A stretch of 64,000 bases of DNA. Origin: Flavobacteriaceae bacterium (lineage in GTDB: Bacteria > Bacteroidota > Bacteroidia > Flavobacteriales > Flavobacteriaceae). The notes beneath the pieces were generated by a model. The model was not told the DNA's origin and did no database searches. It saw only the letters and a list, made by a program, of their open reading frames with translations. The number at the start of each line of letters is the position of its first letter. Within the stretch, counting starts at the first letter, position 1. Of the stretch, positions 31,707 to 36,479 are shown piece by piece. The position numbers and the translations under genes are program-made. The DNA is taken from positions 1-64,000 of the forward strand of contig QXYU01000009.1 in the NCBI GenBank assembly GCA_009886755.1, read 5' to 3'.

Positions 31707-33165
31707 CGGGGATCATTTGAGCTGTTATTTTGGCTGAGAGTAAACAAAGAGGAATACCCCCTCCAGGATGAACACTCCCCCCACAGAAAAAAAGATTTTC
31801 TATGGATCGAGAAAAATTGGGATGACGTAAAAAAGCACTCATTCGATTGTTACTGGAAGAACCATAAAGTGCGCCGCGAAAAGAAGCGGTTTTCTCGGCA
31901 ATTAAAGGCGGGGATAAATGGGTTTCTTCCACAATCAACGGTGCTATGTCCTCTCCTAAAATACGATTTAACTTTTGCAATACCACTTCTCTTGTTTTGG
32001 CCACAAGCGAATTCCATTCTTGCCCTGTATCGGCAGGAGCGTTGATCATAACAAACCAGTTTTCGCAGCCTTCAGGGGCATCCGAAGCAACATCCTTTGA
32101 ACTAATATTAACATAGACCGTAGGGTCTTCGGAGAGTGTTTTGTTTTTAAAAATATCTTTGAATTCCTGCTGATAATCCTTAGAAAAAAAGATGTTGTGA
32201 AGGTTGAGTTGTGGAAATGCTTTTTCAATACCCCAATAGAAGATTAAGGCCGAACTGGAACGTTCCTGTTCAAGTGTTCGCTTGGGTTGTTTTTGCAAAG
32301 GCATCAAATGGCGATACGTGGGTACCACATCCATATTACTAACTACCACATCGGCTTTCAACAACTGACCGTTTACTTCAATCCCTTTCGTTTTTTTATT
32401 GTTAACCACGATTCGGTCAACTGCTTGATTCATGTGGAAACGAACCCCTTTGCGCTTGGCCAATGCCACAAGACTTTCTGAGATAGCTCCCATTCCTTGG
32501 GCAGGAATGAAAGTTCCGTAGTGTTCTTCTAAATGCTGTACCAAGCTCATAATTCCCGAAGTTTGGTAAGGGTCAGAACCATTATAGGTGGCAAAACGAT
32601 CAAAAAATTGAACCAGATAGGGATTTTGAAGTTGTTCTTTGTTGACTCTATGGAGGCTTTTGAATAACTCCAACTGCCCAAGTCCAAGAATTGCTGTTCG
32701 TGTTTCTTTATTGAGGTAAGTGTCTAATTTATGGAGGGAACGTTCTAAAAATAGCGGCGCAGTTAAGTTGTATTTTTGTTGCGCATTGTCTAAGTAGTGA
32801 TGAACTCTTTGCGCAGGTACATTGAGTTGGGTTTCGACCGTATCACAGAACTGTTTGCGATCAGCATAGGCTGTAAGTCGTGTACCATCTTCCCAAAAAT
32901 ATTCACAATGAATGTCCTTTTTTTTATACTTAAAAAAGGAAGCTGCATCTTCACCGGCAAGGGAAAACAATTCGGTTACAAAATGAGGCATGGTAAACAG
33001 CGAAGGGCCTGCGTCAAAACGATACTTCCCAAGGGTGAAAGCGGACAACTTACCGCCTGGATAGTCGTTCTTTTCGAATACCGATACCTGATATCCTTTG
33101 GTCGCTAAGCGAATACTTGTCGCGATGCCGCCGATGCCTGCACCAATGATAAGGGCTTTTTTCAC
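31690..33165 (-). CDS. crtD: Carotenoid desaturase, CrtD type
   Basis: A 491-residue FAD-dependent CrtI-family flavoprotein. The dinucleotide site IIGAGIGGIATSIRLATKG is at about 6-24, followed by VFEKNDYPGGKLS; the C-terminal end has FFCGGSVHPGGGIPLCLLSA, the FAD-binding signature of the family. Of the two CrtI-like proteins in the window this one is taken as the 3',4'-desaturase because it is coupled to cruF and the crtA-like gene, a grouping known from myxol-making flavobacteria. It overlaps crtA by ATGA and cruF by 11-17 bases. Distinction between CrtD and CrtI by sequence reading is not absolute. Confidence 0.82.
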   Translation of the reverse strand: MKKALIIGAGIGGIATSIRLATKGYQVSVFEKNDYPGGKLSAFTLGKYRFDAGPSLFTMPHFVTELFSLAGEDAASFFKYKKKDIHCEYFWEDGTRLTAYADRKQFCDTVETQLNVPAQRVHHYLDNAQQKYNLTAPLFLERSLHKLDTYLNKETRTAILGLGQLELFKSLHRVNKEQLQNPYLVQFFDRFATYNGSDPYQTSGIMSLVQHLEEHYGTFIPAQGMGAISESLVALAKRKGVRFHMNQAVDRIVVNNKKTKGIEVNGQLLKADVVVSNMDVVPTYRHLMPLQKQPKRTLEQERSSSALIFYWGIEKAFPQLNLHNIFFSKDYQQEFKDIFKNKTLSEDPTVYVNISSKDVASDAPEGCENWFVMINAPADTGQEWNSLVAKTREVVLQKLNRILGEDIAPLIVEETHLSPPLIAEKTASFRGALYGSSSNNRMSAFLRHPNFSRSIENLFFCGGSVHPGGGIPLCLLSAKITAQMIPDAHGE

Positions 33166-33872
33166 TGTATAGTGGGTTGAAATTGGGTGTCTGACGCTAC
33201 TACAAATCTAGAAAAAAGATCTTCTTTGTACCATTTCTGCGCTTTGGTTTTTCGAACGATTTCAGCATGCCCGCGATGCTTGTAAGCAAATGTATTAACA
33301 GCTTCAAAATTCTCCCAAATGCTAACCGTAGCTTGTTGAACCCAAGGCCATTCGCCCACTCCTTTATAAAAAAGAACCCCTTTTGCGGTTTCTATGGTTC
33401 GAGCCGCATGGGGCACAGATCGCCAAAAAGAGAGTAAACGATTCCTGTTTAGTGTGGCGCGAGTTAATACAGCAACTGGGGCATAAGCAAGAGTACTGGT
33501 TGTTTTTTCAATATGATTAGCAAAAGGATTGTTCCCATTCCATTTTCCGTGACTATGAACGGGAACTAACCCAATAGTGCGCTGATAGGCGGCTTTTTTT
33601 TGATAGGTTTTCCAATACGGATGATTCGCTGTAAAATTTTGATAGTCTCTGGGACTATCCCACAAGGTCAAAACGGCATAAGTACCGAAATCTGGACGGA
33701 GACTAAAGCCATTACCTCCTCCTGTTCCAAGGAATTTAAAAAACTGTAAGCCCGATGTTTTTTGAATGGCAATAGGCCCCAATAACATTTGCTTGAATGC
33801 CCAATAGCGATTGGATTCAAATTGGAAGAAATCGATATACACTCTGGAGGGAGTTGTTGGTTCTAGTTTCAT
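33162..33872 (-). CDS. CrtA-family carotenoid oxygenase, probable 2-hydroxylase
   Basis: A 236-residue protein of the spheroidene monooxygenase (CrtA) family: GPIAIQKTSGLQFFKFLGTG, GFSLRPDFGTYAVLTLWDS and VLTRATLNRNRLLSFWRSVP are typical, and the C-terminal half repeats the ABM-like fold (GVGEWPWVQQATVSIWEN, FAYKHRGHAEIVRKT). In purple bacteria CrtA makes 2-keto carotenoids; a CrtA-related enzyme of a marine flavobacterium was described as a carotenoid 2-hydroxylase of myxol synthesis, which fits the crtD-cruF context here. First gene of the minus-strand operon, behind a structured leader. Confidence 0.83.
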   Translation of the reverse strand: MKLEPTTPSRVYIDFFQFESNRYWAFKQMLLGPIAIQKTSGLQFFKFLGTGGGNGFSLRPDFGTYAVLTLWDSPRDYQNFTANHPYWKTYQKKAAYQRTIGLVPVHSHGKWNGNNPFANHIEKTTSTLAYAPVAVLTRATLNRNRLLSFWRSVPHAARTIETAKGVLFYKGVGEWPWVQQATVSIWENFEAVNTFAYKHRGHAEIVRKTKAQKWYKEDLFSRFVVASDTQFQPTIQ

Positions 33873-33897
33873 TGCCTTTAAGTTAAGCAGAAAAAGA

Positions 33898-33956
33898 AAA
33901 CGCCTCTGACTTGGATTTTAGAATTTGACTTATGGAAGTAATAAGCAGAGGCGTTT
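33898..33956 (-). promoter_or_regulatory. Long-range 11-bp stem in the crtA-like leader
   Basis: AAACGCCTCTG (33898-33908) and CAGAGGCGTTT (33946-33956) are exact reverse complements around a 37-base interior, which itself has a 5-bp stem CTTAT/ATAAG (33929-33933 and 33941-33945) stacked directly under the outer arm. In the minus direction the stem is followed by TCTTTTTCT and, 25 bases on, the crtA ATG, so a leader transcript would carry a terminator-like or attenuator-like hairpin. No known riboswitch core is recognisable. Confidence 0.5.
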
Positions 33957-33969
33957 GAAACCAAATTGA

Positions 33970-34026
33970 ATTTAAACTTGTTTAAATGTAAATAAAAAAG
34001 TTTGTACAAAACAAATAAGTTTAAAC
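33970..34026. promoter_or_regulatory. Cluster of three palindromes between crtA-like and K+ channel genes
   Basis: In 57 bases there are ATTTAAAC-TT-GTTTAAAT (33970-33987, perfect), TTTGTACAAA (34001-34010, perfect) and GTTTAAAC (34019-34026, perfect); a further CTTAAACA lies at 34052-34059. Spacing of centres is about 27 and 17 bases. They look like operators for one dimeric regulator. MerR-type light or B12-responsive regulators (CarH/LitR) often accompany crt genes in Bacteroidota, but no such gene is in this window, so the regulator is unknown. The rest of 33873-34147 has no coding frame. Confidence 0.5.
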
Positions 34027-34147
34027 AAATTTTCATCTTTTTTTATTTTTTCTTAAACAAAACAGGTAAATCATTGATAAACATGGATTTATTTTGATGT
34101 GGTATGAATTCTTAATTTTAGTATTTTTACAACACTAATATTTATAC

Positions 34148-34231
34148 ATGACACCATTTTCCGTAGCCTTTGTAGTAATAGTGACCTCCGCTATCGTTTT
34201 GTTTGCAATCCTTAGAGACATGAGTCGCTAA
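34148..34231 (+). CDS. 27-residue membrane microprotein
   Basis: The frame MTPFSVAFVVIVTSAIVLFA (first 20 residues) continues ILRDMSR and stops at 34229-34231. It is a single hydrophobic helix of about 19 residues with a short basic/acidic C-terminus, like known bacterial membrane microproteins. The next ATG, of the K+ channel, is two bases after the stop, so the two would be translated together. Upstream TATTTTTA at 34122-34129 is one base away from a -7 box. No homolog is recognised; support is its shape, position and tight coupling. Confidence 0.55.
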   Translation: MTPFSVAFVVIVTSAIVLFAILRDMSR

Positions 34232-34233
34232 TT

Positions 34234-34938
34234 ATGAAGATTTCAGCCGCTTTTGATAAATTCATCTATGCTTTAATCATTGCAAACGTTTTAGCAATGA
34301 TTTTAGAATCGCATGTTTCCATACGAGAAGTCTACCATGCCTATTTTTATGTATTCGAGTTTGTATCCATTATTATTTTCTCTTTCGAATACCTATATCG
34401 TATTGGCGTTGGCTTTAGGGATGATGGAATGAAAGGGGTTTCTAAATACGTTTTTAGCACCTTTGGATTGATTGATTTGATATCCATACTTCCTTTCTAT
34501 CTGAACCAAGTAATAAGAGTTGATGGACGTTTTGTTCGGATCTTACGCTTGTTCCGATTGACTCGAATCTTTAAACTGGGGCGAGACAGTGCATCTCTCA
34601 AGCTTTTTGTTCAAGCGCTTTCTGCAGTTCGAAACGAATTAAAGTTCACGCTGTTTCTTTCCATTCTAACCATATTGTTCTCGGCTTCTGCTATTTACTT
34701 TTTGGAATCCGAAGCACAACCCGAAAAATTCAGTAGTATCACTGAGTCAATCTGGTGGGCAACCGTATCCCTAGCCACTGTAGGTTATGGTGATGTCTAT
34801 CCGATTACTGTTGGAGGTAAAGCCTTTGCCGCTGTGATCTCTCTTGTAGGTATTGGTGTGGTTGCCATCCCTACAGGTATTATCAGTGCCTCCTTTGTAG
34901 AAGAAATTATTGCCGCCAAACGAAGAAAAGAACGCTAG
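34234..34938 (+). CDS. Voltage-gated-type potassium channel (six-span ion transporter)
   Basis: A 234-residue channel of the ion-transport family. Spans S1-S3 precede the voltage-sensor-like S4, whose Arg repeat is seen in RFVRILRLFRLTRIFKLGR (about residues 107-125); S5, the pore helix SIWWATVSLATVGYGD with the selectivity filter TVGYGD (about 183-188), and S6 follow. The C-terminus is short with no RCK or cyclic-nucleotide domain. It should conduct K+ across the inner membrane. It starts 2 bases after the microprotein stop. About 60 bases separate it from crtI on the same strand. Confidence 0.92.
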   Translation: MKISAAFDKFIYALIIANVLAMILESHVSIREVYHAYFYVFEFVSIIIFSFEYLYRIGVGFRDDGMKGVSKYVFSTFGLIDLISILPFYLNQVIRVDGRFVRILRLFRLTRIFKLGRDSASLKLFVQALSAVRNELKFTLFLSILTILFSASAIYFLESEAQPEKFSSITESIWWATVSLATVGYGDVYPITVGGKAFAAVISLVGIGVVAIPTGIISASFVEEIIAAKRRKER

Positions 34939-34982
34939 CTCCGCATAATCAGCCCCAAACCTATCAACACTGTGTATTTACC

Positions 34983-34990
34983 TATATTTG
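34983..34990 (+). promoter_or_regulatory. -7 element of the crtI promoter
   Basis: TATATTTG, a perfect TAnnTTTG box, 7 bases before the crtI ATG. No TTG is found 18-21 bases upstream. The leader would be very short or absent. Confidence 0.4.
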
Positions 34991-34997
34991 TTCAACT

Positions 34998-36479
34998 ATG
35001 AAAAAAAAGATCCTAATTCTTGGGAGTGGTTTTTCGTCCCTCTCTGCCGCGAGCTATTTGGCCCAAATGGGACACCAAGTAGAAGTCTTCGAAAAAAATG
35101 ATACGTTGGGTGGCCGAGCTCGGCAACTAAAGCGCGATGGATTTACTTTTGATATGGGCCCTTCTTGGTATTGGATGCCAGATGTTTTCGAAAAATATTT
35201 TGCTGATTTTGGTAAAAAACCCTCTGATTATTACTCTTTAGAGCGCCTAGACCCAGGCTATCAAGTCTATTTTGGCGTCAATGACAGCATACCCATTGGA
35301 GACTCTCTTGATAAAATCTATAGAGTCTTTGAGAATGAAGAAAAAGGAAGTGGGAAAAAACTAAAAGCATTTATCGACGATGCAAAAACCAATTATGATA
35401 TTGCTATTTCCGACTTGGTTTACCGACCCGGGATTTCCCCTTTGGAACTCGTCACTCCTATAACCATCAAAAAAATACGCTATTTCCTTAGCAACATAAA
35501 AAATGAAGTGACGCGTGGCTTCAAAAATCCAAAGCTTCGACAGATTCTTCAATTCCCCGTTTTGTTTTTGGGAGCCAAACCCCAAAATACACCGGCCTTC
35601 TACAACTTTATGAATTTTGCCGATTTTGGATTGGGTACCTGGCATCCCGACAAAGGAATGTATGCTATAGTGAAAGCCATGGTGGCTGTTGCCAAAGAAC
35701 TTGGTGTTACCTTTCACACCAACAGCCCAGTGGAATCCATTCATGTTGAAAACGGTCGTGCTACAGGTATAACTACTAATGGAAAAAACATACAAGGAGA
35801 TTTCGTTTTGAGTGGTGCCGATTATCACCACACCGAAACCTTATTACCACAGCAATATCGTGTCTATAGTGAACGATACTGGGAGAAAAAGACCTTCGCG
35901 CCCAGTTCTCTTTTATTTTATGTAGGATTGGATAAAAAAGTTAAAAACGTTACCCATCACACCCTTTTCTTTGATGTTGATTTTGATCAGCATGCCCAGC
36001 AAATTTATGATCGCCCTGAATGGCCAACAGACCCTTTGTTCTATGCCAACTTCCCATCCATTACCGATCCCGACATGGCCCCAGAAGGAAAAGAAGCACT
36101 CTTCCTACTGATCCCGATTGCTCCGGGTATTGAAGACACCCAAGCCCATCGCAATCAGTATTTTGATATTGTAATTGATCGAATGGAACGCCTTACCAAG
36201 CAAACCATCCGCCCGCATATTCTTTTTCAGGAATCATTTTGTGTCAACGATTTTGTAAGTGAATACAACTCATACAAGGGCAATGCCTACGGAATGGCAA
36301 ACACGCTTCTGCAAACGGCTTTTCTTCGCCCAAAGCTTAAAAGCAAAAAAGTAGATGGCTTGTATTTCAGTGGTCAGCTTACGGTTCCAGGTCCTGGTGT
36401 GCCTCCAGCTCTAATTTCTGGAAAGCTCGTTTCGGGACTGATTGAAGAGGCTATTTATAATCAATCACCCACCAAATAA
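34998..36479 (+). CDS. crtI: Phytoene desaturase
   Basis: A 493-residue CrtI flavoprotein. The FAD site ILGSGFSSLSAASYLAQMGH is at 6-25 with VFEKNDTLGGRARQL next, then FDMGPSWYWMPDVF, and the C-terminal LYFSGQLTVPGPGVPPALISG, which is the bacterial phytoene desaturase signature in Bacteroidota form. It carries out the four desaturations from phytoene to lycopene at the membrane. In most flavobacteria crtI is followed directly by crtB; here the next gene is an unrelated convergent one whose end overlaps crtI by 29 bases. Confidence 0.93.
   Translation: MKKKILILGSGFSSLSAASYLAQMGHQVEVFEKNDTLGGRARQLKRDGFTFDMGPSWYWMPDVFEKYFADFGKKPSDYYSLERLDPGYQVYFGVNDSIPIGDSLDKIYRVFENEEKGSGKKLKAFIDDAKTNYDIAISDLVYRPGISPLELVTPITIKKIRYFLSNIKNEVTRGFKNPKLRQILQFPVLFLGAKPQNTPAFYNFMNFADFGLGTWHPDKGMYAIVKAMVAVAKELGVTFHTNSPVESIHVENGRATGITTNGKNIQGDFVLSGADYHHTETLLPQQYRVYSERYWEKKTFAPSSLLFYVGLDKKVKNVTHHTLFFDVDFDQHAQQIYDRPEWPTDPLFYANFPSITDPDMAPEGKEALFLLIPIAPGIEDTQAHRNQYFDIVIDRMERLTKQTIRPHILFQESFCVNDFVSEYNSYKGNAYGMANTLLQTAFLRPKLKSKKVDGLYFSGQLTVPGPGVPPALISGKLVSGLIEEAIYNQSPTK

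Follow-up and report, generated by a model that had tools for sequence, protein, structure and literature searches.

A predicted small structured RNA next to carotenoid genes of marine Flavobacteriaceae

The region between crtA and the K+ channel unit, and its conserved element

The analysed stretch of DNA, referred to here as the window, comprises 64,000 nucleotides and belongs to an assembly of 1.78 Mb (G000) whose relatives are Flavobacteriaceae. A 275-bp region in the window separates a minus-strand operon, containing the crtA-like gene, crtD and cruF, from a plus-strand unit which encodes a microprotein, a K+ channel and a crtI-type phytoene desaturase (Table 1). The microprotein (34148–34231) has the sequence MTPFSVAFVVIVTSAIVLFAILRDMSR. 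Its reading frame is conserved in related genomes, including those without the RNA described below, and it has no match in NCBIfam. It is possibly a single-helix peptide associated with the channel.

A preliminary description of the intergenic region reported three perfect palindromes and an 11-bp stem followed by a T-rich run. The reported positions are correct. The palindromes are ATTTAAAC-TT-GTTTAAAT (33970–33987), TTTGTACAAA (34001–34010) and GTTTAAAC (34019–34026), the two stem arms enclose a loop of 37 nt, the T-rich stretch lies on the crtA side of the stem, and the crtA-like ATG is 25 nt away from the stem. Of 1000 dinucleotide shuffles, 58 contained an inverted repeat of 11 bp or longer, and none contained one of 10 bp or longer with six or more G/C. 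The z-score of RNA folding is about −3 on both strands. Eight palindromes of at least 8 bp were observed, compared with a mean of 9.3 in 1000 dinucleotide shuffles, showing that their number is not above chance. The evolutionary conservation of the stem-loop, as seen in the alignment of related loci, is stronger evidence than these chance tests on a single sequence.

The palindromes had been regarded as a possible operator array. This idea is not supported, since their count is at chance level, two of the three are not conserved and the third is found only once in the genome. Across the relatives, TTTGTACAAA is reduced to TTTTGTnnAA, which resembles a −33 promoter box, and GTTTAAAC shows no conservation. 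Of the three, only TTTAAAC-N-GTTTAA is largely kept among relatives. This motif coincides in part with the −7 box and with the predicted start of the RNA, and it has neither compensatory changes nor a second occurrence in the genome. Judged by the alignment, the stem is real and the palindromes are mostly incidental.

Table 1. Features of the region between crtA and the K+ channel unit and the adjoining genes (positions in the window)
Feature	Coordinates	Strand	Basis or remark
crtA-like gene (CrtA-type carotenoid oxygenase/hydroxylase), gene 1 of the crtA–crtD–cruF operon	33162..33872	−	NCBIfam spheroidene monooxygenase, 188.6 bits, under the 300-bit cut-off
T-run after the stem, intrinsic-terminator-like tail	33889..33897	−	5–9 T per 9 nt past the conserved stem core in 44/44 sequences
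Predicted small structured RNA/crtA leader, ~90 nt	33889..33978	−	start predicted by way of the −7 box and end by way of the T-run
P1 3′ arm (CAGAGGCGTTT, minus strand)	33898..33908	−	same covariation as the 5′ arm; 96.9% of cells paired
Near-invariant loop AAGTCAAATTCTAAAATCC	33913..33931	−	most columns 95–100% identical in 44 sequences
P1 5′ arm (AAACGCCTCTG, minus strand)	33946..33956	−	two pairs with compensatory changes, each arising independently at least twice on the K+ channel tree
Leader strand AATTTGGTTT, complementary to loop strand 33922–33931	33958..33967	−	possible pseudoknot or P1-competing helix
Putative −7 promoter box TACATTTA, consensus TAnnTTTA	33983..33990	−	TA and TTT at 1.8–2.0 bits in 40 sequences
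Putative −33 promoter box TTTTG	34007..34011	−	G at 2.0 bits; fixed 16 nt from TTG to TA
27-aa hydrophobic microprotein, immediately 5′ of the K+ channel gene	34148..34231	+	translation; frame kept in relatives
Six-helix K+ channel, voltage-gated type	34234..34938	+	Pfam Ion_trans, 112 bits
crtI-type phytoene desaturase	34998..36479	+	NCBIfam NF058655, 733 bits, over the cut-off

A DNA search and a pattern scan together yielded 44 distinct sequences from marine Flavobacteriaceae, which define a self-contained conserved unit at about 33889–34011 on the minus strand. The unit consists of the −33 box TTTTG, 16 nt, the box TAnnTTTA, a leader, the 11-bp stem (P1) around the near-invariant loop, and the T-run. 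As the alignment shows, the −33 box and the T-run are the limits of conservation; outside them it falls to background, except for a faint signal some 20 nt upstream of TTTTG. The arrangement TTG-N16-TAnnTTTA is found in nearly all sequences, and its 16-nt spacer is variable in sequence. Compared with the sigma-A consensus, the −7 box closes with A and not G, and the spacer falls one base below the usual range. In Flavobacterium psychrophilum the sigma-A box, TAnnTTTG, spans −12 to −5 (PMC9723704), which places the predicted start at about 33978. At the opposite end of the unit, a GC-rich hairpin and a T-run are present, but a loop of 37 nt exceeds what is usual for intrinsic terminators, and a standard terminator scan (loop 3–8) detected none at the element. 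L016, L020 and L021 have poor T-runs. A hidden reading frame was also considered. An ATG occurs in only three of the 44 sequences, the loop lengths vary by 1–3 nt and the indels are not multiples of three, which indicates that the element is not coding.

Nearly every sequence shows complementarity between the leader AAUUUGG(UUU) and the loop strand (AAG)UCAAAUU, with 99.7% of the cells paired for the seven inner pairs and 96.8% for ten pairs. Such complementarity has a 0.5% chance by mononucleotide shuffling. When the nascent RNA was folded before the 3′ arm, pairing between leader and loop appeared in one of three sequences (in G068; not in the window and not in G142). The covariation of this helix is not above that of shuffles, and the pseudoknot, or the helix competing with P1, is thus treated here as a hypothetical structure.

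Covariation, strand and distribution

Ten of the stem pairs were recovered by unguided RNAalifold. Covariation of the stem among relatives, named in the preliminary description as a check, was found in the form of compensatory changes at two pairs (21 cells). Both switch on the two sides, from G-C to A-U and from C-G to U-A, and no other column pair reaches the corrected mutual information of the C-G/U-A pair (columns 69/122). The 21 P1 cells changed on both sides compare with 7.6 in shuffles, and none of 500 shuffles was as high. On the K+ channel tree, at least two changes are required for each of the switching pairs (at least four independent events together), and five are needed for the outer A-U/G-U pair. 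The double changes are confined to two of the 11 stem pairs. When the partner is slid by +2, the covariation score is 0.148 versus 0.166 for P1, though just 67% of the cells pair in that register.

The strand is shown by the wobble pairs. Counted over the ten core pairs, G-U cells number 12 if the minus strand is read and one if the plus strand is read; one variant, L017, has better pairing in the plus-strand reading. This 12:1 asymmetry favours an RNA over a DNA site, and the minus strand over the plus strand. As far as base pairing in the alignment can tell, the element is an RNA read towards crtA from the minus strand.

In two further species of the genus, CrtA is only 67–68% identical, yet the stem, the loop and the adjacent leader are almost letter-identical. 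The DNA search of 397 genomes of the family found the element in 11 of them, that of the window included, which belong to several genera. The pattern scan of 84,980 bacterial and archaeal species, one genome each, gave 43 hits. Their record titles all read Flavobacteriaceae, Flavobacteriales, Arcticimaribacter or Bacteroidetes, and nearly all are metagenome-assembled or single-cell genomes. A covariance model applied to the 397 family genomes returned the same genomes and two weak, probably chance hits; it did not find the element in most of the sampled genera of the family. These comparisons indicate that the predicted ~90-nt RNA is more conserved than the flanking proteins in many open-ocean flavobacteria. 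Two cases that suggested multiple copies per genome have other explanations: L047 and L076 (NHDB01) resemble mixed strains in one metagenome-assembled genome, and L043 and L054 (CAJWGK) resemble one locus broken at contig ends within the element. Neither in the window nor in the loci of eight relatives did the element match an Rfam covariance model (E up to 5). This rules out a known RNA family and agrees with the earlier remark that no known riboswitch core is recognisable. Judged by titles and abstracts, no paper in the open-access collection searched was seen to describe an RNA at this locus, and none of its carotenoid papers describes RNA control in such flavobacteria.

Association with crtA and the proposed mode of action

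The gene downstream of the element is crtA in 36 of the 43 scan loci and cruF in two; two loci have no carotenoid gene there, and the other three are truncated by the end of a contig or locus. Thus, crtA or cruF follows directly in 38 of the 40 loci with a visible downstream gene. The two cruF loci, L044 and L082, are both from Candidatus Arcticimaribacter, and their element is intact. The gap between stem and crtA is 25 nt in the window and ranges from 19 to about 100 nt in the relatives. Such a short gap leaves little room for another promoter, so that in most genomes the transcription of crtA has to run through the element or begin within it. On the other side, crtI lies one to three genes from the element at every locus where the contig shows it.

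The association with crtA is not strict. The genomes G142 and G329, which represent two species of one genus, carry an intact element by the K+ channel gene and crtI, with a convergent transporter gene downstream. Their crtA is located on another contig. The covariance model detected a single copy of the element in each, and no copy was found near crtA with the filters off. The element of these genomes retains the promoter-like boxes, stem, loop and T-run, and its perfect stem and unchanged loop argue against relics. Conversely, in G023, G102, G274 and G357 crtA is divergent from the K+ channel gene and/or crtI, yet the element is absent; a diverged copy before crtA was not found in such loci with the filters off. 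Hence crtA does not need the element and the element does not need crtA, and the surveyed loci show the partial independence of the element from this gene.

As the simplest scheme in agreement with all these observations, we propose a small RNA gene whose hairpin serves as a leaky or conditional terminator, from which read-through would enter crtA and whose released RNA may act in trans. We hold this reading with moderate confidence. Transcription would begin at a sigma-A-type promoter of its own (TTTTG, 16 nt, TAnnTTTA), with the polymerase starting near 33978 on the minus strand. During RNA synthesis, the leader could pair with the hairpin loop. The 11-bp stem would then close and transcription would stop near 33889, setting free an RNA of about 90 nt with the near-invariant loop exposed. 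Where crtA or cruF is directly downstream, read-through past the terminator would yield the mRNA of the carotenoid operon, and a shift in the balance of the hairpin, for which a bound protein, a ligand or the pairing of another RNA might be the signal, would set the expression of the operon. The released RNA probably also acts by itself. In either way, the ~90-nt RNA probably controls pigment genes or serves as a small regulatory RNA.

The main rival is a leader that acts only in cis, as an attenuator or in a riboswitch-like manner, on crtA–crtD–cruF; the hairpin would be a conditional terminator without any trans action. The position of crtA or cruF in the 38 loci is what such a leader predicts, and the leader-loop complementarity could make an anti-terminator or an H-type pseudoknot. 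It fails for G142 and G329, where the intact element has no carotenoid gene downstream, unless these copies are recent relics, and the crtA genes of other genera, including those in loci of the same gene order, lack the element. We consider it rather unlikely. The preliminary description had offered an attenuator or a structured RNA as the function of the crt leader. The structured RNA control element is supported: it is directed towards crtA, lies outside the known families and has compensatory stem changes. The purely cis attenuator is incomplete, because the intact element persists away from crtA in G142 and G329. The same two genomes make the cis and trans roles experimentally separable.

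Control at the DNA level, with the conserved bases and inverted repeats serving as sites of a regulator such as a CarH-like photoreceptor at a divergent promoter, appears improbable. The carotenoid promoters are indeed divergent, TTTAAAC-N-GTTTAA is largely conserved, and a CarH-like MerR protein carrying a B12-binding_2 domain is encoded in the genome together with crtB and crtZ. However, the wobble asymmetry is a property of RNA, the block in the 44 sequences begins at the −33 box and finishes at the T-run, and arms 37 nt apart would be unusual for a dimer site. In addition, the genome contains no further TTTAAACN(0-3)GTTTAAA, the region upstream of carH included, and genomes that lack the element have CarH just as often. 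An RNA of the opposite strand, either as part of the K+ channel/crtI transcript or as a plus-strand small RNA, would fit the constant neighbourhood of crtI and the pairing of L017, but it is very improbable, given the 12 to 1 wobble cells in favour of the minus strand, a T-run that turns into an upstream A-run, and conserved promoter-like boxes that point the other way.

With regard to the trans action of the proposed small RNA, the complement of the 19-nt loop gave about 39 non-self near matches in 12 genomes versus 22 for the reversed pattern, a small excess, and no target in these genomes recurred convincingly at a start codon. Matches at start codons were seen for nqrA in G302 (L178) and for one gene each in G329 (L192) and G251 (L187), approximately the level expected by chance. 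The nqrA-like leader, which belongs to the Na+-pumping NADH dehydrogenase, is complementary to 17 of the 19 loop bases (L178 1501–1519; G302:C2:764028–764046). The complementarity stops 8 nt before the ATG and is by itself at chance level. A wider reading, which we offer as a speculation of low probability, is that of a new RNA class of rhodopsin-bearing pelagic flavobacteria. It would combine a pseudoknot-controlled terminator of the myxol-type carotenoid operon, sensing a pigment, a retinal-related compound or the redox state, with a trans-acting small RNA which links pigment synthesis to membrane energetics through K+ flux or the Na+-pumping NADH dehydrogenase.

Relation to known systems and neighbouring genes

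The surface ocean is rich in pelagic flavobacteria, whose control by RNA is, to our knowledge, little explored. As a discrete RNA of about 90 nt outside Rfam, the predicted element offers a testable handle on how these bacteria set their pigment production. UpsM of Rhodobacter is a small RNA derived from a 5′-UTR and ending at a leader terminator. Similar to UpsM-type RNAs, the element has a promoter, a short leader RNA and a terminator hairpin, all of these predicted, and a protein operon which would be reached only by read-through. It has no sequence relation to them, has a very long, near-invariant loop and is, in the genomes scanned, confined to marine Flavobacteriaceae. SAM-II and preQ1-II are riboswitches of the H-type pseudoknot. 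They share with the element a leader strand that complements the loop of a hairpin further downstream, and a near-invariant A-rich joining strand. The element differs from them in lacking an Rfam match (E up to 5), in that its second stem is the predicted terminator itself, and in the hypothetical nature of its leader-loop helix.

Light control by CarH/LitR has the carotenoid pathway in common with the element. A CarH-like MerR protein is encoded upstream of crtB and crtZ in the genome of the window (L008 5027–7301; G000:C34). It contains the MerR_1 and B12-binding_2 domains as well as WQTGAISPSHEHF and NEIHELG motifs; the main B12-binding Pfam model is not matched, so its binding of B12 is uncertain. 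A common operator is lacking, and the presence of CarH does not track that of the element, so it was rejected as a discriminating partner. Rhodopsin is encoded in nearly all element-bearing genomes checked. It was likewise rejected as a partner, being found in 30 of 32 genomes regardless of the element.

Independent small RNAs have been mapped in F. psychrophilum (PMC9723704). They resemble the element in being small independent transcripts with sigma-A promoters (both predicted in the present case), and they come from the same family. No counterpart of the element was recognised, and the covariance model finds none in most of the sampled genera.

Across genera, the K+ channel gene is recurrently linked with crtI and the crtA operon (34234–36479 in the window). 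It is not seen in L052 and L077. In some loci, for example L045–L047, L051, L055, L062, L069, L078 and L083, a ThuA-like gene joins or replaces the K+ channel gene.
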